Notes under the pieces: generated by a model
The model's input: the letters and a program-made list of their open reading frames with translations, nothing else
Told to the model about the DNA's origin: nothing
The model's database searches: none
Shown here: piece after piece, positions 17,183-38,373 of the stretch
Layout of the letters: each line of letters begins with the position of its first letter
Position numbering within the stretch: position 1 is the first letter of the stretch
Position numbers and translations under genes: made by a program
Assembly: GCA_013695765.1 (NCBI GenBank)
Contig: JACCZW010000162.1
Span: 1 to 59,289, forward strand
DNA from: Gammaproteobacteria bacterium
GTDB lineage: Bacteria > Pseudomonadota > Gammaproteobacteria > JACCYU01
Direction of reading: 5' to 3'
DNA length: 59,289 nucleotides

Positions 17183-17581
17183 GTGGCTAATCGCGCTAAA
17201 GACTGGTTCGCGCAAGCTGAGCGGGACCTGGCTCAAGCGCTGGCGTCGCGCCGCGAAGCGCGGCACGAGTGGGCCTGTTTCGCAGCACAGCAGGCGGCGG
17301 AAAAAGCCGTGAAAGGATTGCATCTGCACCTCGACCAGGAAGCGTGGGGGCATGTAGTCGCCCGCTTGTTGCGCGAGTTGCCGCTGACCGTGCCGGAACT
17401 CCTGGTGGAAAAAGGCAAGGTTCTGGACAACTTCTATGTTGCTACCCGCTACGCCAACGGCCATGCCGAGGGCGCACCGTTTGAGCATTACGGTTCGCTA
17501 CAGAGCGAGGAAGCGATACGTTATGCCAGTGAGATCATTGAATTCGTCCGTGCTCAAATGGCCCAATCGCACGGCAGTTGA
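17183..17581 (+). CDS. HEPN-domain protein
   Basis: Protein of 132 residues starting at GTG (MANRAKDWFAQAERDLAQA). The all-helical pattern, ACFAAQQAAEKAVKGLHLH, the GHVVARLL motif and FYVATRYANG match the HEPN family (PF05168), often the partner of a minimal nucleotidyltransferase. The classic RNase motif Rx4-6H is not obvious, so it may not be a nuclease. It overlaps the downstream MNT gene and probably forms a toxin-antitoxin-like or substrate-binding pair with it. Confidence 0.8.
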   Translation: MANRAKDWFAQAERDLAQALASRREARHEWACFAAQQAAEKAVKGLHLHLDQEAWGHVVARLLRELPLTVPELLVEKGKVLDNFYVATRYANGHAEGAPFEHYGSLQSEEAIRYASEIIEFVRAQMAQSHGS

Positions 17582-17903
17582 TCGGGCGTTGCGCGACTGG
17601 GTAGAACTTGAATGCGCACGGTATCCGGAACTCGCGCGGCTCGGCTACTTCGGGTCTTACGCGCGCGGTGACTGGGGGGTGGGCAGCGATCTGGACGTCG
17701 TGGCGATAGTGGATGCGACAGACGAGCCGTTCGAGCGGCGCAGCTTGAAGTGGGATCTCAATGCGCTGCCGGTGCCTACGGAAATGCTCGTTTACACGGT
17801 CGATGAGTGGAAAACGATACAATTGCGGGGCAAAGGGTTTGCCCGGGCTTTGATGGAAGAGACCGTTTGGGTGTATGTAAAGTCGCGGGAACCTACGGTT
17901 TAA
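17523..17903 (+). CDS. Minimal nucleotidyltransferase (MNT) partner of the HEPN protein
   Basis: About 126 residues from the ATG at 17523 (MPVRSLNSSV); a GTG at 17550 is an alternative start. The polymerase-beta-type active site GSYARGDWGVGSDLDVV lies at residues 44-60, giving the GS...DxD pattern. In MntA/HepT pairs such proteins AMPylate the HEPN toxin; whether this pair does so is inference. It overlaps the HEPN gene by 32-59 bases. The pair separates ssb from the polysaccharide locus. Confidence 0.8.
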   Translation: MPVRSLNSSVLKWPNRTAVDRALRDWVELECARYPELARLGYFGSYARGDWGVGSDLDVVAIVDATDEPFERRSLKWDLNALPVPTEMLVYTVDEWKTIQLRGKGFARALMEETVWVYVKSREPTV

Positions 17904-17998: not shown

Positions 17999-18880
17999 GT
18001 GAGAAAGGGTATCATCCTCGCCGGCGGCTCGGGCACGCGGCTATATCCGCTCACCCATTCGGTGAGCAAGCAGCTCATGCCGGTGTACGACAAGCCGATG
18101 ATCTACTACGCATTGGCGACGCTGATGCTGGCTGGCATTCGCGATATCCTCATCATCACCACGCCGCACGACCAGGCCGCGTTTTTTAACCTGCTGAAGG
18201 ACGGTTCGCAATGGGGCTTGTCGCTTTCGTTCGCGGTGCAGCCGCGGCCCGATGGGCTCGCGCAGGCGTTTATCGTCGGCGAGCATTTCGTCGGTAACGA
18301 TCCGGTGACCCTGACCCTGGGCGACAACATTTTTTATGGCGAAGGTTTCACCAAACGCCTGCAGGCGGTGAGTCAGCGTGACACCGGCGCGACTGTGTTC
18401 GGCTACTACGTCAGCAATCCGAGTCAGTATGGCGTTGTGTCGTTCGATCGCGACCGCCGCGTGACCCGCATCGAAGAGAAACCCGCGGCGCCGGAATCCC
18501 ACTACGCGGTGACTGGTCTTTATTTTTATGACAAAGACGTGGTGGACATCGTCAGACATATACGACCGTCGCCGCGCGGCGAATTCGAGATTACCGACGT
18601 GAACAAGGCCTATCTCGAACGCGGAGATCTCACGGTGGAGATCCTGAGCCGCGGCACAGCCTGGCTGGATACCGGTACACACGGCGCGCTACTGGACGCG
18701 GCGACCTTCATCAGGGTGGTGGAGGAACGGCAGGGTCTGAAAATAGCGTGTCCGGAAGAGATCGCTTATCGCATGGGCTTTATCGACGCCGAGGCGCTGG
18801 AGCGGCTGGCGGCGCCGCTGGATAAAAGTGGCTATGGCGAGTATCTGCGCGGAATCCTTAACGACGGTAAACTGATGTGA
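17999..18880 (+). CDS. rmlA: Glucose-1-phosphate thymidylyltransferase
   Basis: Protein of 293 residues, the usual RmlA length, starting at GTG ([19 protein letters not shown]). It makes dTDP-glucose from dTTP and glucose-1-phosphate, the first step to dTDP-L-rhamnose. Seen: the nucleotide-binding GGSGTRLYP loop, [23 protein letters not shown] and RIEEKPAAP. First gene of the rmlACDB block; it overlaps rmlC by four bases. Its 5' end marks the left boundary of the polysaccharide locus. Confidence 0.97.
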
Positions 18881-19434
18881 AGATCATTGAGACGTCGTTG
18901 CCGGGCGTCTTGATGGTCGAACCAAAGTTCGCCGGTGATGCGCGCGGGTTTTTCATGGAAGCCTTTCAGGCGCGGCGCTATGCCGAGGCGGGTATCGCGA
19001 GCCCGTTCGTGCAGGACAATGTTTCGTTCTCGCGCTTTGGGGTGCTGCGTGGTCTGCACTTTCAGCACCCGCACGCGCAGGGCAAGCTGGTGTATGTCTT
19101 GCAGGGAGAAGTATTCGATGTGGCCGTGGATATCCGGCAAGAGTCGCCCGCGTTCGGCAAATGGTTCGGGGTGAGCTTGTCCGCCGACAACAAGCGGCAA
19201 TTGTGGGTGCCCGCTGGCTTCGCGCACGGCTTTTGCGTAACCAGTGAGACGGCGTTGTTCGTTTACAAGTGCACCGATTACTATCAGCCGGACGCGGAGG
19301 GCGCAGTGGCGTGGAATGACCCGCGCATCGCCGTTGACTGGCCGCTGGAACGCCCCGAACTATCCGCCAAGGACAATTGCGCTTCGCCGCTGGACGACAT
19401 CCCGCGGTCCAGGCTGCCGGTATATTCCGTATGA
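18877..19434 (+). CDS. rmlC: dTDP-4-dehydrorhamnose 3,5-epimerase
   Basis: Protein of 185 residues (E. coli 185) starting at GTG within the GTGA overlap with rmlA. Cupin-fold epimerase, third step of dTDP-rhamnose synthesis. [20 protein letters not shown] contains the catalytic His; [11 protein letters not shown] and [12 protein letters not shown] are family motifs. Its stop overlaps the next start (ATGA), so rmlC and rmlD are coupled. Confidence 0.96.
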
Positions 19435-20327
19435 AGGTTGCCGAAGAAAATCAATCATTGCCGGTAATCATGCTCACCGGCGCGAATGGCCAGTTGGGCT
19501 GGGAGATACAGCGCCGAGCGCAGCACTTAAGTTATACGCTGCGTGCGTTCGATCGTCAGACGCTCGATATTACCGACGCCGCGGCCGTCGATGCCATCGT
19601 GGGTCGGCTGCGTCCACAAGCGATTATCAACGCGGCTGCTTATACGGCGGTGGATCGGGCCGAAGAGGAGCCGGAGCTCGCCGACGCGGTCAATCGGGAT
19701 GGCGCGGCGAATCTGGCGAGGGCCGCGCGTGAGTGCGGCGCCCGCCTGGTACACGTCTCCACCGATTTCGTCTTCGACGGCGATAAGGGCAGCCCTTACC
19801 GGATCGATGACGTGCCCGCGCCGCAGAGCGTTTACGGCGCCAGCAAGTTCGCCGGCGAGCAGGCCGTACTGGACGTGCCTGCGCGCGCCTTGATTGTCCG
19901 TACGGCCTGGGTGTATTCGTCGCATGGCGGCAACTTTGTGCATACCATGCTGCGCCTGATGGCGAGCCGCGACGAACTGCGAGTGGTCGACGATCAGATA
20001 GGTTCGCCAACCTGGGCGGGCGGACTTGCCGACTGTATCCGGCGCGCGTTGGAAGCAAAGCTGACGGGTATATACCACTGGACCGATGCCGGTGTGGCGA
20101 GCTGGTACGATTTCGCGGTGGCGATACAGGAGGAGGCGTTTGCGCTTGGATTGTTGGAGAAGGCGATTCCCATCCGGCCGATTCCGACTCGCGAGTACGC
20201 GACGCCCGCCAAACGCCCGAGCTACAGCGTGCTGGAGAAATCGATCACGTGGCAAGCGCTAAACCACACGCCGCCTCACTGGCGAGCGTCGCTACGCTTG
20301 ATGCTGAACGAAGTCAAACATGCATAA
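19431..20327 (+). CDS. rmlD: dTDP-4-dehydrorhamnose reductase
   Basis: Protein of 298 residues from the ATG at 19431, chosen because it gives the ATGA overlap with rmlC and the family length; 18 upstream in-frame codons lie inside rmlC. SDR-fold enzyme with GANGQLGWE as NAD(P) loop and catalytic YGASK (VYGASKFAGEQAVL). It completes dTDP-L-rhamnose. A short hydrophilic N-terminal extension ([11 protein letters not shown]) precedes the fold. It overlaps rmlB by eight bases. Confidence 0.95.
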   Translation: MKVAEENQSLPVIMLTGANGQLGWEIQRRAQHLSYTLRAFDRQTLDITDAAAVDAIVGRLRPQAIINAAAYTAVDRAEEEPELADAVNRDGAANLARAARECGARLVHVSTDFVFDGDKGSPYRIDDVPAPQSVYGASKFAGEQAVLDVPARALIVRTAWVYSSHGGNFVHTMLRLMASRDELRVVDDQIGSPTWAGGLADCIRRALEAKLTGIYHWTDAGVASWYDFAVAIQEEAFALGLLEKAIPIRPIPTREYATPAKRPSYSVLEKSITWQALNHTPPHWRASLRLMLNEVKHA

Positions 20328-21417
20328 GCTGCTGATAACGGGCGGCGCGGGTTTTATCGGCGCCAACTTTGTTCAATACTGGCTGGGTGAGTACCCGCAA
20401 GATCGGGTCGTCGTGCTGGATGCGCTGACGTACGCCGGCAATCGCGCGAGCCTCTCCGCGGCGGAAAGCAATCCGCGCTTTCGTTTCGTACACGGCGATA
20501 TCCGTGATCAGGCCATGGTGGAAGGGCTTCTGGAAAAAGAATCCATCGACCTGCTCGTGCATTTCGCGGCCGAATCGCACGTGGATCGGTCCATCCTCGG
20601 GCCGGACGCGTTTATCGACACCAACGTGCTCGGTACGCACAGTCTGCTCAAGGCGGCGAAAAAGGCCTGGCTGGATGCGCCCGATGCGTCCCGACGGGCC
20701 CATCACCGTTTTCATCACTGTTCGACCGATGAGGTGTACGGCACCCTGGCGCCGAACGATCCGCCGTTTCGCGAAACCACGGCGTACGCGCCCAATTCGC
20801 CGTATGCCGCCAGCAAGGCCGCCAGCGATCATCTGGTGCGCGCCTACCATCATACGTATGGGCTGCAGGTCACCACCAGCAACTGCTCCAACAACTACGG
20901 GCCTTATCAGTTTCCCGAAAAACTTATCCCGCTGATGTTGATCAACGCCCTGCAGGGCAAGCCGCTACCCGTTTACGGCGACGGACTCAACGTGCGCGAC
21001 TGGCTTTACGTGGAGGATCATTGCCGCGGCATCGCGCAAGTGCTGGAGCATGGGCGTATGGGCGAGACCTACAACCTCGGCGGCCAGTGCGAAAAAACCA
21101 ATATGGAGGTCGTGCGGATGCTGTGCGCGTTGCTGGATGAGGCAGCACCCTCTAGGGCACCGCATTGCGACTTGATCACGCTCATCAAGGATCGTCCCGG
21201 CCACGATCGGCGCTATGCCATCGACGCCGGCAAGGCCGCGTCCGAATTCGATTATCGACCGGCGGAAAGCTTCGAAAGCGGGCTGCGCAAGACGCTGGCC
21301 TGGTACATGGCGAACGAGACCTGGTGGCAGGCGCTGCTGGATGCGGGCTACAAGGGCTGGATAAAGGCGCAGTACGCGCCCAAGGTCAAGGACGCGGAGG
21401 CCCCGCGCCTGCTGTGA
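20320..21417 (+). CDS. rmlB: dTDP-glucose 4,6-dehydratase
   Basis: Protein of 365 residues (E. coli 361). Extended SDR enzyme and second step of dTDP-rhamnose synthesis. Motifs are TGGAGFIGANFVQY (NAD loop), the HCSTDEVYG segment and catalytic YAASKAAS. The order rmlA-C-D-B differs from the more common rmlBDAC. The overlap with rmlD indicates one transcription unit. Confidence 0.97.
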   Translation: MHKLLITGGAGFIGANFVQYWLGEYPQDRVVVLDALTYAGNRASLSAAESNPRFRFVHGDIRDQAMVEGLLEKESIDLLVHFAAESHVDRSILGPDAFIDTNVLGTHSLLKAAKKAWLDAPDASRRAHHRFHHCSTDEVYGTLAPNDPPFRETTAYAPNSPYAASKAASDHLVRAYHHTYGLQVTTSNCSNNYGPYQFPEKLIPLMLINALQGKPLPVYGDGLNVRDWLYVEDHCRGIAQVLEHGRMGETYNLGGQCEKTNMEVVRMLCALLDEAAPSRAPHCDLITLIKDRPGHDRRYAIDAGKAASEFDYRPAESFESGLRKTLAWYMANETWWQALLDAGYKGWIKAQYAPKVKDAEAPRLL

Positions 21418-21445: not shown

Positions 21446-22207
21446 ATGCATCACTACGTTGAGCTGGTCTGGTACAAAGCCTGCGCGGATCTGCGCGCCG
21501 AAGCCGCGCGGTTTTATCTGGGCGTGTTGTGGTGGGTGCTGGAGCCGGTGCTTTACATGGCAGTTTTTTATCTGGTGTTCAGTGTGGTGCTGGAAAGGGG
21601 CGGCGAAGGCTTCGTATCGTTCCTGTTGTGCGGCATGATGATCTGGCGCTGGTTCGGTAGTTCGGTCATGCGTTGCGCCAACGCCATTCCGGCGAATGCC
21701 CGGCTGATGTTGCAGGTTTATCTGCCGAAGTATCTGTTCCCCGCCATCGTGCTGGTGACCAACACGCTCAGATTTTTGATCGTGTTCACACTGTTCCTTA
21801 TCTATCTCGTCCTCGTGGAGCAAACGCTGAGCACGACGTGGCTGGCCCTGCCGGTGCTGATGGTGATTCAGTTTCTGCTGATCGCGGCGTGCGCCTCGCT
21901 GCTGGCCGCCGTTGTGCCGTTTATGCCCGATCTTAGAATTCTCGTCGAAAATGGGCTGACTCTGATGCTTTTCATGTCGGGCATCTTCTATGACGTCTCC
22001 GAGTTTCCCGCCGACGTGCGCGCTTATTTCTATCTGAATCCGATGGTCACGGTGATCGAGAGTTACCGCGCGGTGCTGCTTGAGGGCGCCTGGCCGGACT
22101 GGTCAGCGCTGGCCATCGTATTGCTGATCTCGCTGCTTGGTCTTGCCGCGGCTGTTTATCTGCTGACCCGCTTTGACCGGCGCTACGCCAAGCTGGCTAT
22201 CTCGTGA
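21446..22207 (+). CDS. Polysaccharide ABC exporter permease (Wzm/KpsM type)
   Basis: Protein of 253 residues with six hydrophobic segments. It begins with a short amphipathic segment (MHHYVELVWYKACADLRAEA) and then LGVLWWVLEPVLYMAVFYLV, typical of ABC-2 permeases for O-antigen or capsule export. The C-terminal half has FMSGIFYDVSEFPADVRAYF and NPMVTVIESYRAVLL. It pairs with the ATPase that overlaps its end by GTGA. Together they would flip the finished lipid-linked polymer, so this is an ABC-dependent rather than Wzy-dependent locus. Confidence 0.92.
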   Translation: MHHYVELVWYKACADLRAEAARFYLGVLWWVLEPVLYMAVFYLVFSVVLERGGEGFVSFLLCGMMIWRWFGSSVMRCANAIPANARLMLQVYLPKYLFPAIVLVTNTLRFLIVFTLFLIYLVLVEQTLSTTWLALPVLMVIQFLLIAACASLLAAVVPFMPDLRILVENGLTLMLFMSGIFYDVSEFPADVRAYFYLNPMVTVIESYRAVLLEGAWPDWSALAIVLLISLLGLAAAVYLLTRFDRRYAKLAIS

Positions 22208-22985: not shown

Positions 22986-25900
22986 ATGCAAATCATCGTC
23001 ATCCTGGGCATGCACAGAAGCGGCACCTCCGCCGTGGCGCGGGTGTGCAATCTGCTGGGTGCGGCGGTCGGCGAACAGTTGATGCCGCCCAGCGAAGGCA
23101 ATAACCCCGCCGGCTTCTGGGAACTTGACGAGGTTCGGGTTATTCATGACGAACTGCTGCAGGCGCTTGGGTCGTCCTGGGATGCGACCGCACCGCTGCC
23201 GGCTGATTGGTGGCGGAACGCCGCTGTCTGCGAATTCAAGGATCGCTTGATCCACGTGGTGCGGGAAGAATTTGCGGACGCGGCGCTTGCGTGTCTCAAA
23301 GATCCCAGAATGTGCCGGCTCATGCCGCTGTGGAAAGACATATTCGACGAGATAAAGTGGGAGCCACACTATCTGCTCGCGGTACGTAATCCGCTGGACG
23401 TGGCTGGCTCGTTAAACGCCAGGGATGGGTTGCATCATTGTCAATCCCATCTGCTGTGGTTGCGGCACGTGCTCGAAGCCGAACGATGGACGCGTGGTCA
23501 GCCTCGCGCGTACGTCAGCTATGAAGAGTTGATGGCGGACTGGCGCGCGACGATGACGCCGGCCTGGCGGCAGCTCGGACTGGATGAATTAAGTGTGGAA
23601 CCTTCAGCGGCACGCGAAATCGACGCGTTCCTGCAAACGGACCTGCGGCATCATACGAGCAGCCATGACGATCTGGAAAACGACGAACGCCTTACACTGA
23701 TCCGGCGGGTTTACGACGATTACGCAGCGACGGTAAGTGACGATCAGTCGCAAGGGTCAACGGCTTTGTCCGAACTGGAAAAAACGCTCACCGAAGCGTC
23801 ATTTTTGTTCGAACCAGTCATCGACGACGAACGCAGGCAAAAAACCACACTCGTAACGCAAAAGACCGCACTCGCAACCGAATTGCGCTCGGTCAATCTC
23901 CGCATAAACGCCGCCACCGGGGAGATCAACCAGCTCCGACACGAACTGGCGAACGTCACTCAGCAGTCGACCAGCCGGCTGGCGGAGATCAACCAGCTTA
24001 GGCATGAACTGGCGGACGTCACACAGCAGGCTGCGAGCCGGCTGGCGGAGACTAAGGATCTGCGAAAAGTCATCACGCTGCACGAGAGGAAACTTGCGGA
24101 GCAGGGTGACGCCCTTCAGGAGCAGGCTTCCACGATCACATCGCTGGCCGCTGCGATCACGGCGCTGCAGTCGTCGACAAGCTGGCGCGTAACGGCTCCA
24201 CTGCGAGGCGTCAAAATGGGCGTGCAAAGCGGGGCCGCCGCGTTGCGCGGCCCGCTAGCGAGCAGTCTGCGCTGGCTGTTTGATCGATTGCCGATGACGT
24301 ACAACAACAAGCTGCGTTTGAAGGCGCACGCGCTTGCCTTGAGTCCCAGAGTCGGCAAATTCCTAAAGGGTGCTGCCTCCTCGGCGTCCAACAAAAAGTA
24401 TCTCGATTGGATAAAGACCAACGATACGCTTGACGATGTTGATCGCGCCGCGATCAGACGGCACATCGCGGCGCTTGGGAGAAAGCCGCTGATCTCGGTG
24501 ATTATGCCGGTGTTCAATCCGCCGGAGCGGTTCCTGCGTGGTGCCATACAGTCGGTCCTGGATCAGCTCTACGATCGCTGGGAGCTGTGTATTGCCGACG
24601 ACCGTTCGACCCAACCATACGTTGCTGAAATGCTGCGCGAATACGAGGGCAGGGACGCGCGGATCAAGGCCGTATTTCGCGATCAAAATGGCAATATCTC
24701 CGCTTGCAGCAACAGCGCGATAGCGCTCGCCACGGGTGATTATGTCGCGCTTCTGGATCACGATGACGCTCTGGCTGAACATGCCCTGTACATGATCGCC
24801 GTCGCGATCAACGAGCACCCGAGCGCTAATATCATCTACTCCGATGAAGACAAGATCGACGAACACGATCAGCGCAACACGCCGTATTTCAAGACGGACT
24901 GGAATCCAGACCTGTTCTACGGACAGAACATTATCAACCATCTGGGCGTCTATCGAGCCTCCGTCGTCAGGGAGATCTCCGGCTTCCGCTTAGGCTTCGA
25001 GGGCAGTCAGGACTATGATCTTGCCCTGCGCATAATCGAGCGGACGGCCCCGCGGGATATCGTGCACATTCCCAATATCCTGTACCACTGGAGAATAACT
25101 TCGTCGGCCGTTTCGTTTTCCCAGCGCCATCTGGCGTGGGCGGGTGCGGCGGCCCGCGGTGCAATCAGAGAACATTTTGCCCGGCTTGGCATCGATGCGG
25201 AGGTGGATTCCGCGCCAGACTCCCCTCACTACCAGCGTGTACGGCGGCCCGTCCCACAGCCCGCACCCCTGGTGTCCTTGATCATACCGACCAGGGATAA
25301 AGTCGATCTACTGCAGCAATGCATCGACAGCATCCTGTTCAAGACCGCGTATTCGCCGCTGGAGGTGATCATCGTCGATAATGGGAGCGTTGAGCCGGAA
25401 ACGCATGCCTACCTTACGAGCGTGTCGGCGGACAGCAGAGTTCAAATCATCAAATACGATCAGGTATTCAATTACTCGGCGATAAACAACTTCGCCATAC
25501 GCCAGGCCAGAGGCGACGTTATCGGGCTGATCAACAATGATATTGTTGTCATCAACGAGGATTGGCTGACTGAAATGGTGAGCCACGCCGTGAGACCCGA
25601 AGTCGGCGCCGTGGGCGCGATGTTGTACTACCCGGATGACACCGTTCAACACGCGGGCGTCGTCATGGGAATCGGCGGCGTCGCCGGTCACTCTCACAAA
25701 CACGTTCCGCGCGGGCACCACGGATACTTCGACAGGCTGACTCTCGTTCAGAACGTGAGCGCCGTCACCGGCGCCTGTCTGCTTATGCGGCGCGAAATAA
25801 TGGATCGGTGCCGCGGGCTGGACGAAGAAAACCTCAAGATTGCGTTCAACGACGTCGATTTGTGCCTGCGGATACGCGCGCTGGGCTATCGGATTGTATG

Positions 25901-26189
25901 GACGCCGCACGCGGAGCTTTACCACCTGGAGTCGGCCTCACGCGGCACCGACATGGCGCCGGAAAAGTTTGAGCGGTTCGCGCGAGAAGTACGATGGATG
26001 AAAAATCGCTGGGGGGACGTGTTGCTGGAAGACCCCTACTACAGCCCCAACCTGACGCTTGACAGGGAAGATTTCTCTCTGGCCCGCGAGATGCGCGCGA
26101 GCAAACCCTGGATTGACTTTTTGACGGAGACGATCTCATCCGCCGAAGAGCATCATGCGGCGGCGCTGGAAGGAAAACAAAACGGATGA
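22986..26189 (+). CDS. Sulfotransferase - coiled coil - double GT2 fusion
   Basis: Protein of 1067 residues with four parts. Residues 1-250 form a sulfotransferase-like domain: P-loop IVILGMHRSGTSAVARV and the 3'-phosphate site AVRNPLDVAGSLN. Residues about 265-400 form a coiled coil with a 21-residue repeat. Residues about 500-740 form a GT2 domain starting PLISVIMPVFNPPERF, with LLDHDDA as metal site. Residues about 760-1040 form a second GT2 starting PLVSLIIPTRDKVDLL, with NNDIVV and HAGVVMGIGGVAGHSHKH, as in rhamnosyltransferase-like enzymes. The sulfation role is inference from the PAPS-type P-loop. It overlaps the next gene by ATGA. Confidence 0.85.
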   Translation: MQIIVILGMHRSGTSAVARVCNLLGAAVGEQLMPPSEGNNPAGFWELDEVRVIHDELLQALGSSWDATAPLPADWWRNAAVCEFKDRLIHVVREEFADAALACLKDPRMCRLMPLWKDIFDEIKWEPHYLLAVRNPLDVAGSLNARDGLHHCQSHLLWLRHVLEAERWTRGQPRAYVSYEELMADWRATMTPAWRQLGLDELSVEPSAAREIDAFLQTDLRHHTSSHDDLENDERLTLIRRVYDDYAATVSDDQSQGSTALSELEKTLTEASFLFEPVIDDERRQKTTLVTQKTALATELRSVNLRINAATGEINQLRHELANVTQQSTSRLAEINQLRHELADVTQQAASRLAETKDLRKVITLHERKLAEQGDALQEQASTITSLAAAITALQSSTSWRVTAPLRGVKMGVQSGAAALRGPLASSLRWLFDRLPMTYNNKLRLKAHALALSPRVGKFLKGAASSASNKKYLDWIKTNDTLDDVDRAAIRRHIAALGRKPLISVIMPVFNPPERFLRGAIQSVLDQLYDRWELCIADDRSTQPYVAEMLREYEGRDARIKAVFRDQNGNISACSNSAIALATGDYVALLDHDDALAEHALYMIAVAINEHPSANIIYSDEDKIDEHDQRNTPYFKTDWNPDLFYGQNIINHLGVYRASVVREISGFRLGFEGSQDYDLALRIIERTAPRDIVHIPNILYHWRITSSAVSFSQRHLAWAGAAARGAIREHFARLGIDAEVDSAPDSPHYQRVRRPVPQPAPLVSLIIPTRDKVDLLQQCIDSILFKTAYSPLEVIIVDNGSVEPETHAYLTSVSADSRVQIIKYDQVFNYSAINNFAIRQARGDVIGLINNDIVVINEDWLTEMVSHAVRPEVGAVGAMLYYPDDTVQHAGVVMGIGGVAGHSHKHVPRGHHGYFDRLTLVQNVSAVTGACLLMRREIMDRCRGLDEENLKIAFNDVDLCLRIRALGYRIVWTPHAELYHLESASRGTDMAPEKFERFAREVRWMKNRWGDVLLEDPYYSPNLTLDREDFSLAREMRASKPWIDFLTETISSAEEHHAAALEGKQNG
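23922..24062 (+). repeat. 63-base in-frame tandem repeat encoding coiled coil
   Basis: About 2.2 copies of a 63-base unit start at 23922, 23985 and 24048 inside the fusion gene. Each encodes 21 residues (EINQLRHELA, then VTQQ and SRLA), exactly three heptads. The copies differ at several bases, so the duplication is not brand new, but slippage could change the rod length by three heptads at a time. Confidence 0.8.
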
Positions 26190-27004
26190 ATATTCTGGTT
26201 ATCGGCAAGGGCAAGACCGGCACCACGATTATCTCGAAATCGATCCAGCTCTCCATGCCGGATTCGATTTATTATCTGGAACCAAAGAAGATCGGTCTTT
26301 TCATGAGGCCGGCGCAGCCCGCCCAGGCGTGCGTGGTGAAGATCATCTACGAGCACTGGGATGCGACCCCGAACCTGCGCGAAGCCATTATGCATAACGA
26401 ACTGCCGCTCAAGTTCAAGCGTATCGTGGCGATCGTGCGCGATTTGCGTGATGAGGCGATCAGTCGACTTTTTTACATCGCGCTCCCGCTGGCGCAACGG
26501 GGTGTGGAACCCCGGCTTATGGATGCGTGGCTGGATGTGCTGAAAGAAAAGGAGCGGGATCCGCATGTCATCTCTTTTCTGGGCATGATCGAGAAACTGA
26601 ACGACATCTTTGGAACGAAGGTGGCGCCACGTCCGCCTGTGGATCTGCGTTACCTGCGATTTCTCGACAAGCATGCGCAAAGGATCTACGTCATCAAGTA
26701 TGAGGATTTTATCGAGGACCGGCTCGATAATCTGGAATCGTATCTGGGTTTCGAGGTGTCGGATGATCGCCATGTAGGCGAATATCACTGGACGCGTCGA
26801 ACCGCTGCCTATAATAACTGGAAGCGGTTTTTTACGCCGGGCGACATCGAACAATTGCGTGATCTTTACGATCCGCTGCTCATCCGGCACGGCTACACGG
26901 ACTGGGCGCTGGACCCTGACCCGGTGCTGAAACCGGACGAATGTTCCGGCTATGTGCGGCGCATCGTCGCTGGCGTGCACGCCGCCGCCGCGGCGCCCGG
27001 ATAG
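26186..27004 (+). CDS. Sulfotransferase-like protein
   Basis: Protein of 272 residues. The N-terminal P-loop ILVIGKGKTGTTIISKSI and the later IVAIVRDLRDEAISRLFY (3'-phosphate site) give the two PAPS-contact motifs of cytosolic-type sulfotransferases. YVIKYEDFIED matches the downstream family motif. No signal peptide, so it acts in the cytoplasm on nucleotide- or lipid-linked sugars. It is coupled by ATGA to the large fusion. The acceptor is unknown, and some proteins of this fold in polysaccharide clusters are unproven as sulfotransferases. Confidence 0.75.
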   Translation: MNILVIGKGKTGTTIISKSIQLSMPDSIYYLEPKKIGLFMRPAQPAQACVVKIIYEHWDATPNLREAIMHNELPLKFKRIVAIVRDLRDEAISRLFYIALPLAQRGVEPRLMDAWLDVLKEKERDPHVISFLGMIEKLNDIFGTKVAPRPPVDLRYLRFLDKHAQRIYVIKYEDFIEDRLDNLESYLGFEVSDDRHVGEYHWTRRTAAYNNWKRFFTPGDIEQLRDLYDPLLIRHGYTDWALDPDPVLKPDECSGYVRRIVAGVHAAAAAPG

Positions 27005-27073: not shown

Positions 27074-27880
27074 GTGTGGAACAGGATTCGCCAGCGTCTG
27101 TTCGCGGGTAATATCGCGCGGACTGATCAACAGACCACCGACACGACGCCCCGGGCCAGCTTGTCGCAGGGTGACGCGGCCCGTGACGACGATGCGCGGG
27201 CAGACGCGATCGCGCGCGAATTTGAACAGCGCAAGCCGTGGGTTACGCGCTTCTGGATAGACGGCGTGGCTTATGGCGGCGCTTTTGATGCCATGAACGA
27301 TGTGCGTCTGGAGCAGTTTCGCGCGCGATTCCCCGAGGTCAAAACCATTCTTGAACTCGGCGCACTGGAAGGCGGCCATAGTTTCGGGCTGGCCGCGGCC
27401 CCGCGGGTCACGCGTATCGTGGGTCTGGAGGGGCGGGCGTCCAATATCGAGCGCGCGCGTCTGGTTCAAAAGCTGCTTGGCGTCGGCAAGGTTGAGTTTC
27501 ACGAGGTCAATCTCGAGCAAACGGACCTGGCCGACTGGGGCCGGTTCGACGCGGTTTTCTGCTCCGGCCTTTTGTATCACCTGCCCGAGCCGTGGAAGCT
27601 CCTGGACCTGTGCGCAAAGGTCAGCCCCGGATTTTTTATGTGGACGCATTACGCCGCCGGTGACGGCAATGTGGAGGTCAACGGCTATCGCGGCAAGTGG
27701 TACCGGGAAAGCGGTCTCGGCGATCCATTGAGCGGCATGTCGCAGGAATCCTTCTGGCCAACTTTGCCGGCACTGAAACGTATGCTGCGGCAGAGCGGAT
27801 ACAACGAGGTTCATATCATTCACGACGACGCGAACCACCCGCACGGCCCGGCCGTGACGCTGGCGGCAACGGCCGTTTAA
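27074..27880 (+). CDS. SAM-dependent methyltransferase (class I)
   Basis: Protein of 268 residues from GTG (MWNRIRQRLFAGN). A Rossmann SAM site is visible at ILELGALEGGHSFGLA (motif I), VGLEGRASNIERAR (acidic loop) and FDAVFCSGLLYHLPEPW (motif IV). The C-terminal part MSQESFWPTLPALKRML resembles sugar or lipid methyltransferases in O-antigen loci. It is probably an O-methyltransferase acting on the polysaccharide. It lies between sulfotransferase genes, 69 bases after the previous gene. Confidence 0.8.
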   Translation: MWNRIRQRLFAGNIARTDQQTTDTTPRASLSQGDAARDDDARADAIAREFEQRKPWVTRFWIDGVAYGGAFDAMNDVRLEQFRARFPEVKTILELGALEGGHSFGLAAAPRVTRIVGLEGRASNIERARLVQKLLGVGKVEFHEVNLEQTDLADWGRFDAVFCSGLLYHLPEPWKLLDLCAKVSPGFFMWTHYAAGDGNVEVNGYRGKWYRESGLGDPLSGMSQESFWPTLPALKRMLRQSGYNEVHIIHDDANHPHGPAVTLAATAV

Positions 27881-27965: not shown

Positions 27966-28754
27966 ATGGATCTTCAAGCCCTTATTGTCGCGGCGCGTCC
28001 GCGCCCCATCGTCGATTCGCGGAACAAGCTATTGTTGGTCTGGAGTGCGAAGTCCGGCTGCACATTCGCCGTCAAATGGCTGTTTACGCAAATGGGTGTG
28101 CCGGAGGCCTGCGCAAGGCCGCATAAGTATCGTGCCGAGCTGTATAAGAGTGAGCAGCAAAAGGCTGCGGTAACGGATTTCGCCAAAGCGCCAGGCTCGT
28201 ATCGCACCGTCAAATTCATCCGGGATCCCTTCAAGCGCGCTGTGAGCTCTTACATACACGCCGCCCGCATTGGCTACGACGATGCCGCGATCAGCACGTT
28301 CCTCGGGCGCGAGGTGGATGCGACCAGCCGCTTTTCCTTTAGAGAGTTTCTGCGCTATCTCGAAAGCATCGATCTGACACGTTGCAATATTCATCATCAA
28401 TCGCAGGCGCACGCGCTGGAACGCCGATACATGCTGGCGTCGATGTTTCTGGTCAACCTGGACCATTCCATGCAAACGCTGCCTGAGCTCGAGTCGTACC
28501 TGGGGCTGGAGCAAAGCGATCCGCGGCGGTTCAGAGAATCGGCGCACCACACCCGCAGGCCGCAAGATGCGGACGGTGGTTTTAACGGCGACAAGGTTTT
28601 CGACATTTACAATGTAGCCGTCGCCGAGATGCCTGAATATCACAGCTTCTATGACGCGGAATTAACAGACAGCGTTGCCAGTTTGTATGCGGAAGATTTC
28701 GTGCGCTACGGCTTCAGTCCGTCGCTGGACGACGGGCGTCGTAATCAAGCATGA
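27966..28754 (+). CDS. Sulfotransferase paralogue 1 (Sulfotransfer_2-like)
   Basis: Protein of 262 residues. It shares its architecture with the two genes that follow: PRPIVDSRNKLLLVWSAKSG, then CTFAVKW (PAPS P-loop region), KFIRDPFKRAVSSYIHA (3'-phosphate site), FREFLRYLESIDL and a C-terminal FYDAEL...LYAEDFVRYGF. Most diverged of the three. Cytoplasmic, no signal peptide. It ends in an ATGA overlap with paralogue 2. A unique polysaccharide acceptor for each paralogue is inference. Confidence 0.82.
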   Translation: MDLQALIVAARPRPIVDSRNKLLLVWSAKSGCTFAVKWLFTQMGVPEACARPHKYRAELYKSEQQKAAVTDFAKAPGSYRTVKFIRDPFKRAVSSYIHAARIGYDDAAISTFLGREVDATSRFSFREFLRYLESIDLTRCNIHHQSQAHALERRYMLASMFLVNLDHSMQTLPELESYLGLEQSDPRRFRESAHHTRRPQDADGGFNGDKVFDIYNVAVAEMPEYHSFYDAELTDSVASLYAEDFVRYGFSPSLDDGRRNQA

Positions 28755-29566
28755 GCTTTCGCATGCGATTCGATTTTAAGCGATCCCCGCTTCACAAGTT
28801 GATAGTGGCGCCGCCGGAGCCGATCGTGGATTCTCGACACAAGGTCGTGCTTCTCTGGAGCGCCAAGGCGGGCTGTACATTCGCCGTAAAATGGATGCTC
28901 GGTCACATGGGGCTGCTACAGGAGGCGCTGGCGCATCATCGCTGGATTCATAATTACCGCGCCCATAAGCTTTACAAAAGCGCCGCGCATAAGGCGTCAA
29001 TTCAGGACTTCGTCGACGAGCCCGCCGCTTACCGCGCTGTCAAGATCGTCAGGAATCCATTCAAGCGCGCCTTGAGTTCTTATATCCATGCTTCACAGTG
29101 TGGTTACGAAGACGTACATATGGCGAGGTTTCTTAAGCGAGCCGTCGATGCGGACAACCGGTATTCGTTCCGGGAATTTGTTGCCTATCTGGAAACGATC
29201 GACTTGAATGCGTGCAACGTTCACCATCGCTTGCAGACGCATCGCCTGGAGCGGGCTTTCGCGCCGGGAACGCGTTTTGTGATCGACCTCGACCACTCCA
29301 TGATATTGCTGCCCGGACTCGAACGTCTGCTCCGCTTACGGCGATCGAATTTGAGCCGCTACCGGAAATCGCACCATCACACACAGCCGTCCAAGCGTAT
29401 CGCCACCGAGTTCAGCGCAGATTCGCTATTGCGCGTAACGCTGGAGTCCAAGCGGGATCTGCCTGGCTACCGTCACTTCTACGACGCGGACCTCGAGCGC
29501 CGCGTTTATGATTTGTATGCGGAAGATTTTCTGCTCTACGGTTTCTCCACGACTCTCGGCGGTTAA
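28751..29566 (+). CDS. Sulfotransferase paralogue 2
   Basis: Protein of 271 residues, closely related to the next gene. Both carry LLWSAKAGCTFAVKWML, HMGLLQEALAHH and FREFVAYLETIDL. The 3'-phosphate motif is IVRNPFKRALSSYIHA. The start overlaps paralogue 1 by four bases, and three bases separate it from paralogue 3, so all three are co-translated. Tandem duplication is the simplest origin. Confidence 0.82.
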   Translation: MSFRMRFDFKRSPLHKLIVAPPEPIVDSRHKVVLLWSAKAGCTFAVKWMLGHMGLLQEALAHHRWIHNYRAHKLYKSAAHKASIQDFVDEPAAYRAVKIVRNPFKRALSSYIHASQCGYEDVHMARFLKRAVDADNRYSFREFVAYLETIDLNACNVHHRLQTHRLERAFAPGTRFVIDLDHSMILLPGLERLLRLRRSNLSRYRKSHHHTQPSKRIATEFSADSLLRVTLESKRDLPGYRHFYDADLERRVYDLYAEDFLLYGFSTTLGG

Positions 29567-29569
29567 ACG

Positions 29570-30439
29570 ATGATTGATCGAACGCCTCCGCGATTAGATC
29601 GAGATAGCGGGGAGAAGCAGAGAATCATTCGCTGCCTCGCGACGCGCCCTCGACCGATACTCGATTCGCAACACCAGCTGATGCTTCTCTGGAGCGCCAA
29701 GGCGGGTTGTACATTCGCGGTCAAGTGGATGCTCGATCATATGGGGCTTTTGCAGGAGGCGCTGGCGCACCATAAGTGGGTACATAATTTTCGTGTCGCA
29801 AAGCTTTACGCGGGACTTGCTCACAAAGCATCCGTGCGCGACTTTCTCAATTCGTTCGAGGGATACCGGGTAATTAAAATTGCCCGGAACCCACATAAGC
29901 GGGCCGTCAGCTCTTACATTCACGCCGCTTGTTGCGGTTACGAGGACGCCAGAGTATCCGATTTTTTAGGTCGGCCCGTCGGAAAACACAGCGGGTTTTC
30001 CTTCAGGGAATTCGTTGCATATCTCGAAACCATCGACCTAGGCAACTGCAACGTTCATCATCGCATGCAGGTGCATCCGCTCGAGCGTTATTTTGTGCCG
30101 GGCTCCCGTTTCATAATCGATCTGGATCAATCCATGGCTTTGCTCCCGAAGCTGGAATACCTGCTCGGCTTGCCGCGGACCGATCCAGCAGATTACCGCG
30201 AATCATCCCACCATACGCGTACATCGTCGTATGCCAACGAGAAGTTCAGCGGCGATACGGTATATGATTTCGCGGACAAAAAAAGCGCGGTGATTCCAGG
30301 TTATCGCGCGTTTTATGACGCGGAGCTCGAAGAGCGGGTCGGGGCACTCTACGCGGAGGATTTTTATCGATACGCCTTCCCGACCTCTCTAAAGGAGCAC
30401 CTCGCGCGCGAAGACGCGTATGCACAACCGGGCTTATAG
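29570..30439 (+). CDS. Sulfotransferase paralogue 3
   Basis: Protein of 289 residues. It shares LLWSAKAGCTFAVKWML and HMGLLQEALAHH with paralogue 2, and the 3'-phosphate motif IARNPHKRAVSSYIHA, in which His replaces the Phe of the other two. It has a longer N-terminus (MIDRTPPRLDRDSGEKQR) and C-terminus than its siblings. It lies three bases before the methyltransferase-GT2 fusion gene. Divergence at the acceptor side between shared motifs suggests different acceptors or positions. Confidence 0.82.
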   Translation: MIDRTPPRLDRDSGEKQRIIRCLATRPRPILDSQHQLMLLWSAKAGCTFAVKWMLDHMGLLQEALAHHKWVHNFRVAKLYAGLAHKASVRDFLNSFEGYRVIKIARNPHKRAVSSYIHAACCGYEDARVSDFLGRPVGKHSGFSFREFVAYLETIDLGNCNVHHRMQVHPLERYFVPGSRFIIDLDQSMALLPKLEYLLGLPRTDPADYRESSHHTRTSSYANEKFSGDTVYDFADKKSAVIPGYRAFYDAELEERVGALYAEDFYRYAFPTSLKEHLAREDAYAQPGL

Positions 30440-30442
30440 CGC

Positions 30443-32467
30443 GTGACGCGAAAAGACAAAGTCTTTCATTATCTGGACAAGGAGGGTTTGGGACTTGAGA
30501 TCGGTCCCAGCATTAACCCGATCGCGCCCAAGAAAGAAGGCTACAGGGTTCATATCATCGACCACATGAGCAGAGAAGGGCTGGTCGAAAAGTACAAGGA
30601 TCACGAAGTCAACTTAAAAAAAATCGAGGATGTAGATTTCGTCTGGAATGGACAACCTTACGCGGAGCTGACCGGCAAGAGTAAGTTTTACGACTGGATC
30701 ATCGCCTCGCATGTTGTCGAGCACACGCCGGATCTCGTCGGTTTTCTAAATGATTGCGAGAGCTTGCTCAAGGACGACGGTATCTTTTCTCTGGCCGTGC
30801 CTGACAAGCGGTTTTGTTTCGATCGCTTCCGACCCATTACCGGTATCGCGCGCGTCATCGACAGCCATGTCCAGAAAAACGTGATACATACGCCGGGGGT
30901 CGCCGCCGAGTATTTTCTGAACGTCGTTTCCAAAGGGGGGCGTATCGCGTGGGATCAGCACCATCGGGCGGACTACAAGTTTGTGCACACGGTCGACCAC
31001 GCCCGCGCCGCGATCGATCAGATTCGTGCCAATGGCGTGTATTACGATGTCCACGCTTGGTGCTTTACCCCCCATTCTTTTCGTTTGCTCATGCATGACC
31101 TGCATTCTCTGGGCCTGACGTCCCTCAAGGAAGTCGGTTTCTTTGAGACAGCAGGCTGCGAGTTTTTCATAAGTCTGAGTCGGTCCGGAGAGGGCGTTAA
31201 ACTCGACCGGCTACAGTTACTGGAGAAGATCGAAGACGATCTGGCATGGGAGCGGCCGCGTAACGATCAGGTTCCGGAGCATCAGGCTCCTGAGCCTCTA
31301 ACCGTGGCTTGCGCGCCTCAAGGGCAACCAGTTCGTGAGGCGAGCCGCCCAGTTGGTGAGTTCCCGTTTGCGCTGAAGGCGCGCGGGGAAGATGTCCGCG
31401 TCGCTGCAAGATCGCACCGCGATACACAGTGGGCAGCCATGCTATGCAGTGACCGCGAGCGAGCTGAAGGTCATGATAAGCAGCGCTCGCGTTACTTGTG
31501 CCCGCCCGAGCCATCGCGGATGAGCGTGAAATCATCGGGGATTCAATCGACAGAGAAAAGCACTCAGGTATGCGCCGTAATGGTGGCGTATTTCCCGAAC
31601 ACGAGCATGCTCAGAGCAGCGCTGCAAGCGCTCTACGCGCAGGTTCAGGCCGTGCTGATCGTGGACAACACGCCGGGTCGGCACGACGTGTGTGAGGCAA
31701 TTGCCGGTTTGACCGTCACCGTGCTGGCCCCGGGGCGTAACCGGGGCGTGGCGGGTGGCCAGAACGTGGGTGCGAGATGGGCGCGAGCGCGGGGGTTTAC
31801 CCATGTTCTTCTGATGGATCAGGACAGTGTGGTGGCGCCCGACCTGGTGACGCGGTTGCTCGCGGCGGAGATTTCTCTTAACGCCGAAGGGAAAGCGGTG
31901 GCCGCTGTGGCGCCGAGGTTTTTGAATGTAAGACGGCTGCAGGCAGCGCCACACGCTGTGGCTCAGGGCTGGTGTGCGAGTGAAGTCGTCGAGACCGGGG
32001 CGGGCGGAAAATGCCAGCAACTCGACTATGTCATATCCTCGGGCAGTCTCATCGAGCTGAAAAAGCTCGAGATCGTTGGCGAAATGGAGGAGGCATTATT
32101 CATCGATTACGTGGACATCGAGTGGGGCTTGCGAGCCCGAGCGAAGGGATACCATTGTTACGGTGTGTACGAGGCCCACATCGAGCATTGCCTGGGCGAT
32201 ACCGACGTGGCGGTGCCGTGGATGAAAAAGCGCCGGGTCATCGTACATAGTCCGCTTCGACACTACTATTATTTTCGGAATGCCATACACCTCTACAAGC
32301 GGTCCTATGCGTCATGGGCCTGGACGCTCAATGATGCTTCTCGCCTGGTCCTGAAATACGTCTTCTACTCGACCATAACGGCGCCCCGCCGGCAGCACCT
32401 ACGCATGATGACGCTGGGTATCTGGCACGGTTTGCGAGGCCGGCTCGGTCCTTGTACAGAGCAATGA
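30443..32467 (+). CDS. Methyltransferase - GT2 glycosyltransferase fusion
   Basis: Protein of 674 residues from GTG. The N-terminal part (about 1-265) is a class I methyltransferase: LGLEIGPSINPIAP (motif I), DWIIASHVVEHTPDLVGFL and LLKDDGIFSLAVPDKRF. The C-terminal part (about 372-660) is a GT2 rhamnosyltransferase-like domain: VCAVMVAYFPNTSMLRAALQ, NRGVAGGQNVGARWA and the metal site LLMDQDSVV. The linker of about 100 residues between them looks unstructured and unlike either family. An internal ATG at 31520 could start a separate GT2. Fusion by read-through of a former intergenic stretch is possible. Confidence 0.8.
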   Translation: MTRKDKVFHYLDKEGLGLEIGPSINPIAPKKEGYRVHIIDHMSREGLVEKYKDHEVNLKKIEDVDFVWNGQPYAELTGKSKFYDWIIASHVVEHTPDLVGFLNDCESLLKDDGIFSLAVPDKRFCFDRFRPITGIARVIDSHVQKNVIHTPGVAAEYFLNVVSKGGRIAWDQHHRADYKFVHTVDHARAAIDQIRANGVYYDVHAWCFTPHSFRLLMHDLHSLGLTSLKEVGFFETAGCEFFISLSRSGEGVKLDRLQLLEKIEDDLAWERPRNDQVPEHQAPEPLTVACAPQGQPVREASRPVGEFPFALKARGEDVRVAARSHRDTQWAAMLCSDRERAEGHDKQRSRYLCPPEPSRMSVKSSGIQSTEKSTQVCAVMVAYFPNTSMLRAALQALYAQVQAVLIVDNTPGRHDVCEAIAGLTVTVLAPGRNRGVAGGQNVGARWARARGFTHVLLMDQDSVVAPDLVTRLLAAEISLNAEGKAVAAVAPRFLNVRRLQAAPHAVAQGWCASEVVETGAGGKCQQLDYVISSGSLIELKKLEIVGEMEEALFIDYVDIEWGLRARAKGYHCYGVYEAHIEHCLGDTDVAVPWMKKRRVIVHSPLRHYYYFRNAIHLYKRSYASWAWTLNDASRLVLKYVFYSTITAPRRQHLRMMTLGIWHGLRGRLGPCTEQ

Positions 32468-32585
32468 ACCAGGCGATGCGGCTATCATTCTCGCTGGACC
32501 TGGCTAACGGTTGCCCCGATGCTGGATGGCGCGGGTGACCTTGCGCGCATCTTCATGTAAATGGCGCCACCTGCTCAAGTATCCC

Positions 32586-33316
32586 GTGTCCAAAAAAATA
32601 TTCATCATCGGCACGGGGCGATCCGGCACCCACTGGGTTGCTCGCACGCTTGCCGAACACAGGGAGATTCGCGCCACGATAGAGGTTAAATCGGCGTTTG
32701 ACTGGGTGACCCGGATGGCGCTGGATCCAGCGACTCGCAAGCGGCTGTTTCCGCGCCTGGTGCGTTACTATCGGTATCAGCATTTTATATCGGTGCCTTG
32801 CCACTACATGGACAAGAGTCACCCGAACATCTGGCTGGCAGACCAACTGGCTGAAACCTTCAGTGATGCCGTTTTTATCGGCATGCAGAGAAATCCCTAT
32901 GCCACGGTAGCCAGCATGCTGATCGGGGGGTGCTGACGTGGCAGGAGCGATGGCGCGAATTACCAATACCCAATGCGTTTTTGGGCATTACCGAAGACCA
33001 ACTGCCCTATTACGACCGGCTGGCTGTTGCCCGGAAGTGCGCCATGAGATGGAAGGCGCATAACAGACAACTCCTGCATTTGGCGGATGCGCTGAAAGAC
33101 AGGCTGCTTGTCATACAGTATGAAGAACTGGCCGCACAGACGCAGAACGTGCTGGCGAACCTGGAACGTTTTCTGGATTTATCGTGCCCGATAACGATGC
33201 CGGAGATCAAAACGACCTCCATCGGTAAATGGCGTGAGCAATTAAGTCACGTGGAAATCGAGCAGATTAGCGCCGGTCTGAACGACTCACCGCACCGTCC
33301 GCAAACCGAGGCGTAG
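32586..33316 (+). pseudogene. Sulfotransferase gene split by a frameshift at a G6 tract
   Basis: The first frame (GTG at 32586, or an upstream start at 32511) encodes the P-loop IFIIGTGRSGTHWVARTLAE and the 3'-phosphate motif IGMQRNPYATVASMLIGG, then stops at 32936. The remainder (LTWQERWRELPIPN, LLVIQYEELAAQTQNVL to 33316) is in the next frame. The shift lies at six G (32925-32930); seven G would restore one protein of about 243 residues. It could be a pseudogene, a phase-variable gene or a base-calling error. Confidence 0.75.
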
Positions 33317-35076: not shown

Positions 35077-35425
35077 AAACGCAAGGTTCTGGATGCGACT
35101 AGTCGAGGAGGTTATTTGGTGTTTGCAAGGCAAGACAACGATAAATTGTAATCCAAAAAAGAGAATGGCCATCGGCTTCGAGCCGTTAATTTGCCTGGCG
35201 AAGAGCGGCTCAAGCAGCTGTAACACGCTGATGGTAAACTGTTTGATATATCGCAGCCGTGGAAAAAGCGCTTGTGGAAAGTAAGCGTTTCGTGATCGCC
35301 GGCGCTTCCGAGCCGATAATAATGAACTTGAATCCAGCGCCCATTCGGGTCAGCGACAAGCGGTCAGGCGAGGATTCCCTTCGCGATCTGGCGCGCGCGC
35401 ATCCGGCCCGCCCCGTAATCCACCT
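35077..35425. other. Divergent intergenic region, no gene recognised
   Basis: About 350 bases between the minus-strand pyruvyltransferase gene and the plus-strand GT2 gene. The part near 35101-35160 is AT-rich and should hold the promoter of the minus-strand gene, but I see no convincing -35/-10 pair. Small open frames here (for example 35259-35456 plus) have no family features. Confidence 0.4.
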
Positions 35426-37302: not shown

Positions 37303-38322
37303 TTGACTGACGGGCTGGAAGCATTACTTCTAGCCGGGGTGTCCGCCAGTTCCTTTGCCGCGACCGGCATCGTGCGCAGGCGCGCACTCAGTCATCAGCA
37401 TCTGGATGTGCCCGGCCCGCGCAGTTCGCATGCGGTGCCGACCCCCAATAGCGGCGGTCTGTCGTTCGTGGCGGTGTACCTGTTCGCCATTTTGGTGTTG
37501 TGGATGGTTGACACCATGTCAGCGAGACTGTTCATGGCGCTCTTCGTCGGCGGCGCGGCGGTGGCCGCGGTCGGTTTGTGGGATGACCACTCGCCGGTGC
37601 CCGCCAGAGTCAGGTTCGGGATTCATTTCGCGGCGTGCGGCTGGGCGGTGTATTGGCTGGGCCGTGTCCCTGCGTTGCCGGTAGGCGACATATCCCTGGA
37701 CATGGGGCTGGCAGGTTACGCTCTGGCCGTGATCGCAAGCGCATGGCTGCTGAATCTTTACAATTTTATGGACGGCATAGACGGTCTTGCCGCCATCGAA
37801 GCCATCGCTGTACTGACGGGCGCCTGTTTAATTATTGTCGCCGGCGATCCGCAGGTCAGTTTTCTCTGCCTCGGTCTGCTGGCGGCAGCCACCTTGGGAT
37901 TTTTGCCCTGGAACTGGTCACCCGCGCGCATTTTTATGGGGGATACCGGCAGCGGATTTCTCGGCTTCGGGCTTGCTGTAATGGCTATGCACACCGCCAA
38001 CTCGGGCGCGCTTTCGATCTGGAGCTGGATTATCCTGATGGGTGTATTTATCGTCGATGCAACTGTCACGCTCTTAAGACGGATGATCAGCGGGCAGCAA
38101 TGGCACCTGGCGCACCGCAGCCATGCGTATCAGCACGCGGCAGTGCGATGCGGTTCGCATCGGCGCGTAACGTTAGCGGTGCTCGCTATCGATGTGATAT
38201 GGCTGTTACCATTGGCATGTTATGTGAATAACCACCCCGAAAAGGGGGTTGTCGTAGCCGGTCTTGCGCTGGCGCCGCTGATTATGCTGGCGCTTGCGCT
38301 GGGTGCGGGTAGAGGCGGGTAA
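37303..38322 (+). CDS. Undecaprenyl-phosphate sugar-1-phosphate transferase (WbpL/WecA family)
   Basis: Protein of 339 residues, probably from TTG (MTDGLEALLLAGV), with about ten membrane segments. Family motifs are LWDDHSPVPARVRFGIHF, LYNFMDGIDGLAAIEAI, ARIFMGDTGSGFLGF and the cytoplasmic HLAHRSHAYQHAA. It would start the polymer by placing a HexNAc-1-phosphate (QuiNAc or FucNAc) on undecaprenyl phosphate at the inner membrane. The wbpV-wbpL-wbpM order matches Pseudomonas O-antigen loci. Confidence 0.9.
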   Translation: MTDGLEALLLAGVSASSFAATGIVRRRALSHQHLDVPGPRSSHAVPTPNSGGLSFVAVYLFAILVLWMVDTMSARLFMALFVGGAAVAAVGLWDDHSPVPARVRFGIHFAACGWAVYWLGRVPALPVGDISLDMGLAGYALAVIASAWLLNLYNFMDGIDGLAAIEAIAVLTGACLIIVAGDPQVSFLCLGLLAAATLGFLPWNWSPARIFMGDTGSGFLGFGLAVMAMHTANSGALSIWSWIILMGVFIVDATVTLLRRMISGQQWHLAHRSHAYQHAAVRCGSHRRVTLAVLAIDVIWLLPLACYVNNHPEKGVVVAGLALAPLIMLALALGAGRGG

Positions 38323-38373
38323 GGATGCAATCTTGAAATGACTGACTCTTGTAGTGGGAGCATAGTGCCTTAA

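Follow-up and report, generated by a model that had tools for sequence, protein, structure and literature searches.

A single intact reading frame in a gammaproteobacterial surface-polysaccharide locus encodes a 1067-residue protein in which a predicted PAPS-dependent sulfotransferase is joined by a long coiled-coil rod to two family GT2 glycosyltransferase domains. We tentatively read this fusion as a polymerase carrying a sulfating capping enzyme on a ruler, acting on an ABC-exported, rhamnose-containing surface polysaccharide; this is our leading interpretation, held with considerable reserve. The kind of system is known, and the sulfotransferase version appears to be undescribed: a literature search for sulfotransferases in connection with coiled coils, terminators, Wzt and O-antigen returned no such system, though an earlier mention may exist. 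The gene lies in a 59,289-nucleotide stretch of DNA analyzed as a whole (the window), the features of which are collected in Table 1.

Table 1. Features of the fusion gene and the surrounding locus, in window coordinates.
Feature	Position	Strand	Evidence or remark
rmlA, rmlC, rmlD, rmlB (dTDP-rhamnose supply)	17999..21417	+	translations by sequence character; conserved synteny
Wzm-type ABC-2 permease	21446..22207	+	Pfam ABC2_membrane
Wzt-type ATPase, 253 aa	22204..22965	+	only about 21 residues past the ATPase core; without cap-binding domain
Fusion gene	22986..26189	+	one intact 1067-residue ORF, ATG start
PAPS-type sulfotransferase domain, predicted (residues 1-250)	22986..23735	+	15 positions identical throughout 34 homologous domains; Pfam Sulfotransfer_3; fold match to sulfotransferases
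Coiled-coil rod (about residues 254-404)	23745..24197	+	heptad scoring, shuffles, AlphaFold helices
21-bp (one-heptad) tandem duplication in rod	23837..23878	+	TRF; not present in L061
63-bp (three-heptad) tandem repeat in rod	23921..24051	+	TRF; 2.1 copies in the window
Rod-to-polymerase junction (residues 397-480)	24174..24425	+	STSWRVTAPLR motif, basic segment, low-confidence helices
First GT2 domain (residues 500-711)	24483..25118	+	Pfam, DXDD motif LLDHDD 589-594, AlphaFold
Second GT2 domain (residues 760-1030)	25263..26075	+	Pfam, NXD motif INNDIV 849-854, AlphaFold
Stand-alone sulfotransferase-like protein	26186..27004	+	Sulfotransfer_1, weak, below cut-off; start codon overlaps fusion stop
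Class I methyltransferase	27074..27880	+	Pfam
Three sulfotransferase-like genes (27966, 28751, 29570)	27966..30439	+	first two: Sulfotransfer_2
Methyltransferase and GT2 in one 674-aa frame	30443..32467	+	two ORFs in L061 (1335-2306, 2377-3291)
Sulfotransfer_3 gene split over two frames	32511..33316	+	near G6 run (ATCGGGGGGTGC)
WbpL-like sugar-phosphate transferase (PF00953) and WbpM-like dehydratase (PF02719)	37303..40311	+	initiation of undecaprenyl-linked chain

Domains of the fusion protein

The fusion frame contains no internal stop codon on its plus strand, and no ORF of similar length runs antisense to it, which excludes a reading on the opposite strand. From the N-terminus, the protein consists of the sulfotransferase domain (1 to about 250), the coiled coil (about 254-404), a basic junction (397-480), and the two GT2 domains (about 500-711 and about 760-1030). 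In a full-length AlphaFold model built from 26 sequences (pLDDT 82), the sulfotransferase domain is modeled with good definition, most blocks of the GT2 pair score above 90, and the region of about 390-466 is poorly defined. An orthologue from the same genus (L061) matches it from end to end at 85-90% identity, and we therefore take the fusion to be real and maintained; together with distant homologues that have the same domain order, it rules out an assembly artefact or chance read-through. A COG number search gave no result. The first-pass annotation had described a sulfotransferase, a rod and two GT2 domains in one 1067-residue chain, and this description is borne out by the ORF, Pfam, the family profile, the fold, heptad scoring and AlphaFold.

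The N-terminal domain carries the 5'-PSB P-loop GMHRSGTS (8-15), E46, KDPR (105-108), and the 3'-PB motif RNPxxVxxSL (134-143). Fifteen residues are invariant in all 34 homologous domains (G8, R11, G13, T14, S15, G25, N40, G43, E46, K105, P107, R108, R134, P136 and S142), spanning what we take, from general knowledge of PAPS enzymes, to be the 5'-phosphosulfate loop and the 3'-phosphate motif, including the invariant 3'-phosphate-binding arginine and serine. Two observations could be read as pointing to another P-loop enzyme, for instance one resembling nucleotide kinases: the Pfam Sulfotransfer_3 score of the fusion itself (20.9 to 26.4 bits, the highest value being obtained with the N-terminal domain alone) falls just beneath the curated cut-off of 27 bits, and NMP kinases occur lower in the fold list for residues 1-250, with Z about 10.5. 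The doubt raised by the Pfam score is removed by the homologous domains, 32/34 of which match Sulfotransfer_3 (11/34 match Sulfotransfer_1). In the fold comparison, sulfotransferases are far ahead of the kinases: an AlphaFold model covering residues 1-250 (pLDDT 84) aligns with human TPST1 at Z 16.5, 212 residues being matched. The invariant 3'-phosphate-binding Arg/Ser motif likewise argues against a kinase-like enzyme. A profile of the 34-member family searched against the PDB found sulfotransferases as its best matches (tyrosylprotein sulfotransferases, SULTs and polyketide-synthase sulfotransferases). Family profile and fold thus rule out a different P-loop class for practical purposes, leaving the kinase-like reading a very slight chance, and profile, fold and motifs uphold the original assignment.

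We therefore describe the domain as a predicted PAPS-dependent sulfotransferase, on the basis of its modeled fold and both PAPS-binding motifs, features that it shares with the tyrosylprotein sulfotransferase/Sulfotransfer_3 family. The best-matching solved members of the Sulfotransfer_3 type are 15-18% identical to it and act on acceptors other than polysaccharides. The genome also encodes an APS kinase (233 bits), which would supply PAPS; this gene is widespread and so is weak evidence for PAPS use.

In the C-terminal half, Pfam GT2 matches cover residues 504-663 and 761-1005 (E 1e-44), and both domains have the GT-A fold with intact catalytic motifs, first DXDD and then NXD, that are conserved in relatives. 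DXDD and NXD are also the motifs given in the study of Klebsiella pneumoniae O7 ORF6 for that protein's pair of dTDP-Rha GT2 modules (PMC11231755). The top structural matches of the pair are dual-GT2 polymerases, the K4 chondroitin polymerase of Escherichia coli and heparosan synthase 2 of Pasteurella, which likewise combine two GT2 domains in a one-chain polymerase but make glycosaminoglycans and have neither a sulfotransferase domain nor a rod. At two other loci (L053 and L058), the same tandem GT2 bears methyltransferase domains in place of the sulfotransferase. The same-genus assembly contains another allele of the locus (L062), with a polymerase half only 61% identical to that of the fusion and downstream genes that are 80-91% identical; the sequences suggest either exchange of the polymerase module or the presence of two strains in the MAG.

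The rod and the junction to the polymerase

The rod is a continuous coiled coil of about 126-136 residues, of which residues 279-404 form one unbroken heptad register of 126 residues, with IKKLIILSILATILLIIT and ELLVALVRLVRLHQQLLR at the a and d positions. A register of this length was reached by 0/200 shuffles of the same linker, and the longest register in the other window proteins tested was at most 32 residues, as judged by a home-made scorer calibrated only on shuffles and the window's own proteins. AlphaFold places helices at 254-353 and 360-395. With a rise of 0.15 nm per residue, the fully extended rod would be about 19-20 nm long. WbdD has a rod of similar size, about 20 nm, and the length of the O-antigen changes when that rod is altered by insertion or truncation (PMC5082667).

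Tandem repeats within the rod differ in copy number among close relatives. The 63-bp repeat has 3.2 copies in L061 and at least 2.9 in L062 (TRF), the latter a lower bound for a locus on another contig of L061's assembly that is cut by the contig end. Up to the junction, the window and L061 are exactly 7 residues apart (STSWR motif at 397 versus 404), and the net change in rod length between close relatives amounts to whole heptads, with flanks 85-90% identical and heptad phase preserved. From the varying repeat copies and the whole-heptad difference, the rod is a fast-changing part of the protein, with its register kept. Such variation fits selection for a working coiled coil, and alone is no proof that length matters.

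Between rod and polymerase, residues 397-480 carry a net charge of +12, with low-confidence helices and an only moderate helical moment (0.48), and are a candidate inner-membrane contact. The junction motif also closes the rod of L037, L044, L061, L062, L102, L104, L107 and L108. In the form SxSW[RK]xTxPLR, it stands where the coiled coil gives way to a basic segment in the window (24174) and in L037, L044, L102, L104, L107 and L108, with differing neighbors, and is possibly a general rod-to-membrane junction.

The locus and the distribution of the architecture

The fusion belongs to an O-antigen-type locus that begins with rmlACDB, wzm and wzt, and continues after the fusion with a sulfotransferase-like gene, a methyltransferase, three sulfotransferase-like genes, a methyltransferase/GT2 frame, a split sulfotransferase gene, glycosyltransferase and sugar genes, and the WbpL-like and WbpM-like genes. 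The wzm/wzt genes end about 20-24 bp upstream of the fusion, an arrangement conserved in L061, which also keeps the gene order all the way from ssb/rml through the methyltransferase/GT2 genes, at 69-97% protein identity. Besides the fusion, the locus holds five sulfotransferase-like genes; the one at 29570 resembles those at 27966 and 28751, without a Pfam match of its own, and the split in the last reflects either a frameshift in the organism or an assembly error. The middle of the methyltransferase/GT2 frame looks like translated spacer.

Three further observations concern the surroundings. At 17183-17903 (+), on the edge of the polysaccharide locus, a HEPN-domain gene overlaps an MNT-type nucleotidyltransferase gene, like a HEPN/MNT toxin-antitoxin pair. 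The minus strand of the cluster encodes, at 33352-35226, a polysaccharide pyruvyltransferase-like domain fused to a GT2-like domain. Elsewhere in the window's genome (contig C54, L070 7702-13137), an 1812-aa frame with two GT2-like matches is perhaps part of a second polysaccharide locus.

The sulfotransferase family was found in 36/369 Gammaproteobacteria genomes (about 10%) and in 43/398 genomes of the phylum. Many of the matches lie in frames of 1000-2000 residues, often N-terminal to a coiled coil and a glycosyltransferase. The strict order of sulfotransferase followed by tandem GT2 occurs in the window, L061, L063, L110, L115, L123, L044 (Hoeflea), L041 (Symploca) and L054 (an actinomycete), and with the rod it recurs in Alphaproteobacteria and one cyanobacterium; heptad scoring detected no coil in L054. 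In other members, the same sulfotransferase and rod are joined to GT2 plus GT1/GT4-type domains. In a Silanimonas MAG (L036 9974-13785), the fusion seems to be divided in two: overlapping frames directly downstream of a long wzt encode the sulfotransferase-rod and the tandem GT2 separately. The first-pass annotation had called the combination unfamiliar; since many genomes carry it, it is not rare, which refutes the remark in part, though we found no functional description.

Among sulfotransferase-family proteins of at least 400 aa, 37/52 have at least 56 coil residues, and at least 22/52 have wzm and wzt nearby, a lower bound because the flanks examined were of unequal length. This prevalence of the rod bears on the possibility that sulfotransferase and polymerase are independent modules fused for co-expression, acting on different substrates or at different stages, with the rod as a generic linker or dimerization element. 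The joining of the same sulfotransferase to many glycosyltransferase types, at varying positions, speaks for such an arrangement, as does a polymerase half that has apparently been swapped between alleles in this genus (61% versus 85% identity). A rod retained in most family members, and a heptad phase preserved across rod length changes in close relatives, are harder to square with a generic linker, and we consider this explanation improbable.

The window's Wzt differs from that of characterized terminated O-antigens, in which Wzt carries a cap-binding module: the Wzt cap-binding domain PF14524 is absent from it and from the whole genome, which also rules out a Wzt_C supplied in trans. Other family loci have a Wzt with a C-terminal extension of 199-220 residues, which from its length would be a cap-binding module, and in L036, L107, L119, L126 and L131 the sulfotransferase gene touches or overlaps such a long-extension wzt. 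Across 22 loci, coil length showed no relation to Wzt type (medians 119 for long and 120 for short Wzt; Mann-Whitney p 1.0), ruling out that rod length is tied to a long Wzt.

Proposed working of the fusion and its alternatives

The nearest characterized design is K. pneumoniae O7 ORF6, a terminator-ruler-polymerase comprising a methyltransferase/kinase, a coiled coil and two rhamnosyl GT2 domains (PMC11231755). It resembles the fusion in its N-terminal modifying enzyme, coiled coil and two C-terminal GT2 domains (DXDD then NXD), and its setting resembles the fusion's locus as an ABC-transporter O-antigen system with dTDP-rhamnose. It differs in having a methyltransferase-kinase cap enzyme and an extra CBM-like domain where the fusion has a sulfotransferase, and its activity has been demonstrated, while that of the fusion is predicted. 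E. coli O9a WbdD, a methyltransferase/kinase, likewise carries its terminator on the distal tip of a rod, whose length of about 20 nm is a tested ruler (PMC5082667), but the polymerase WbdA is separate, the cap is methyl phosphate, and Wzt has a cap-binding domain. K. pneumoniae O12 WbbB is a single polypeptide with polymerase, terminator and coiled coil; its terminator is a beta-Kdo transferase (GT99), and its polymerase glycosyltransferases come from other families. Geobacillus WsaE shares an N-terminal modifying (methyl cap) domain and two rhamnosyltransferase domains, beside wzm/wzt and rml; it has a methyl cap and no sulfotransferase, and no rod is described in the source (PMC2943079). 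A stand-alone sulfotransferase gene of Aeromonas salmonicida, between wzt and wbbB, is unexplained, with no such residue reported in the O-antigen (PMC4483657).

By analogy with these systems, the two C-terminal GT2 domains would extend an undecaprenyl-linked chain at the membrane, with rhamnose as the probable donor, and the basic junction would hold them there. The coiled coil, in parallel orientation, would oligomerize the protein as a dimer or trimer and keep the sulfotransferase some 20 nm away from the polymerase; a chain would have to grow long enough to reach it before being sulfated, from PAPS, at the free end. Sulfation would block or slow extension and set a modal length, and the finished chain would leave through Wzm/Wzt. 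The role of terminator is assigned by analogy with characterized proteins of this layout, which carry the terminating enzyme on the distal end of the coil (PMC11231755).

Several features speak for capping: the motif pair shared with O7 ORF6, a rod of WbdD-like size that changes by whole heptads, the setting of wzm/wzt, rml and WbpL/WbpM-like genes, and modular swapping of the sort seen in the known class (methyltransferases in L053 and L058, a split sulfotransferase-rod gene in L036). Against it count the short Wzt, the independence of coil length from Wzt type, the five other sulfotransferase-like genes, the family members without a coil, and loci without wzm/wzt in the sequence examined. 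The fusion thus has two traits of terminator/ruler proteins, a coiled coil between an N-terminal modifying enzyme and a polymerase, and wzm/wzt genes alongside; the window's Wzt lacks the third, a carbohydrate-binding module. With this last link, cap recognition by Wzt, absent from the genome, capping would not gate export. Given the Wzt without a cap module and the coil length independent of Wzt type, we do not place the fusion in the terminator class, though it may plausibly work like one. The earlier suggestion that the rod could be a ruler or scaffold is well supported by the analogy with O7 ORF6 (PMC11231755), and it is weakened by the missing cap-recognition domain.

The main rival, and a live one, holds that residues are sulfated as they are added, with the rod as an oligomerization or spacing scaffold of a membrane-bound synthase and chain length arising from the balance of synthesis and export. 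Where Wzt lacks a cap-binding domain, chain length is set by such a balance, and the window's Wzt is short. The presence of five more sulfotransferase-like genes in the operon points to a polymer that bears sulfate all along its length, so that the sixth need not be a terminator; the coil length unrelated to Wzt type and the coil-less sulfotransferase and tandem GT2 of L054 also fit. A rod of about 20 nm would nevertheless be odd for sulfating residues added at its opposite end, the N-terminal enzyme is the terminator in characterized coiled-coil proteins of this layout (PMC11231755), and at five family loci the wzt that adjoins or overlaps the sulfotransferase gene has a long C-terminal extension. 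We give sulfation of the repeat unit a serious chance, of about one in three.

Terminator-ruler systems determine the length of O-antigens and other surface glycans. A sulfotransferase as terminator would add a cap chemistry and offer a handle on sulfated bacterial polysaccharides, and the capping reading suggests a likely role for a large, recurrent and functionally undescribed set of multidomain proteins. The natural series of rods differing by whole heptads makes the ruler idea testable without engineering. That sulfate serves as a chain-terminating, length-measured cap, added by a PAPS sulfotransferase about 20 nm from its fused polymerase, across several phyla, is a bolder and more doubtful proposition. 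If true, sulfate would join methyl(phosphate) and Kdo as a further cap chemistry, and rod length, and hence polymer length, would drift between close relatives through gain and loss of the 63-bp three-heptad repeat.
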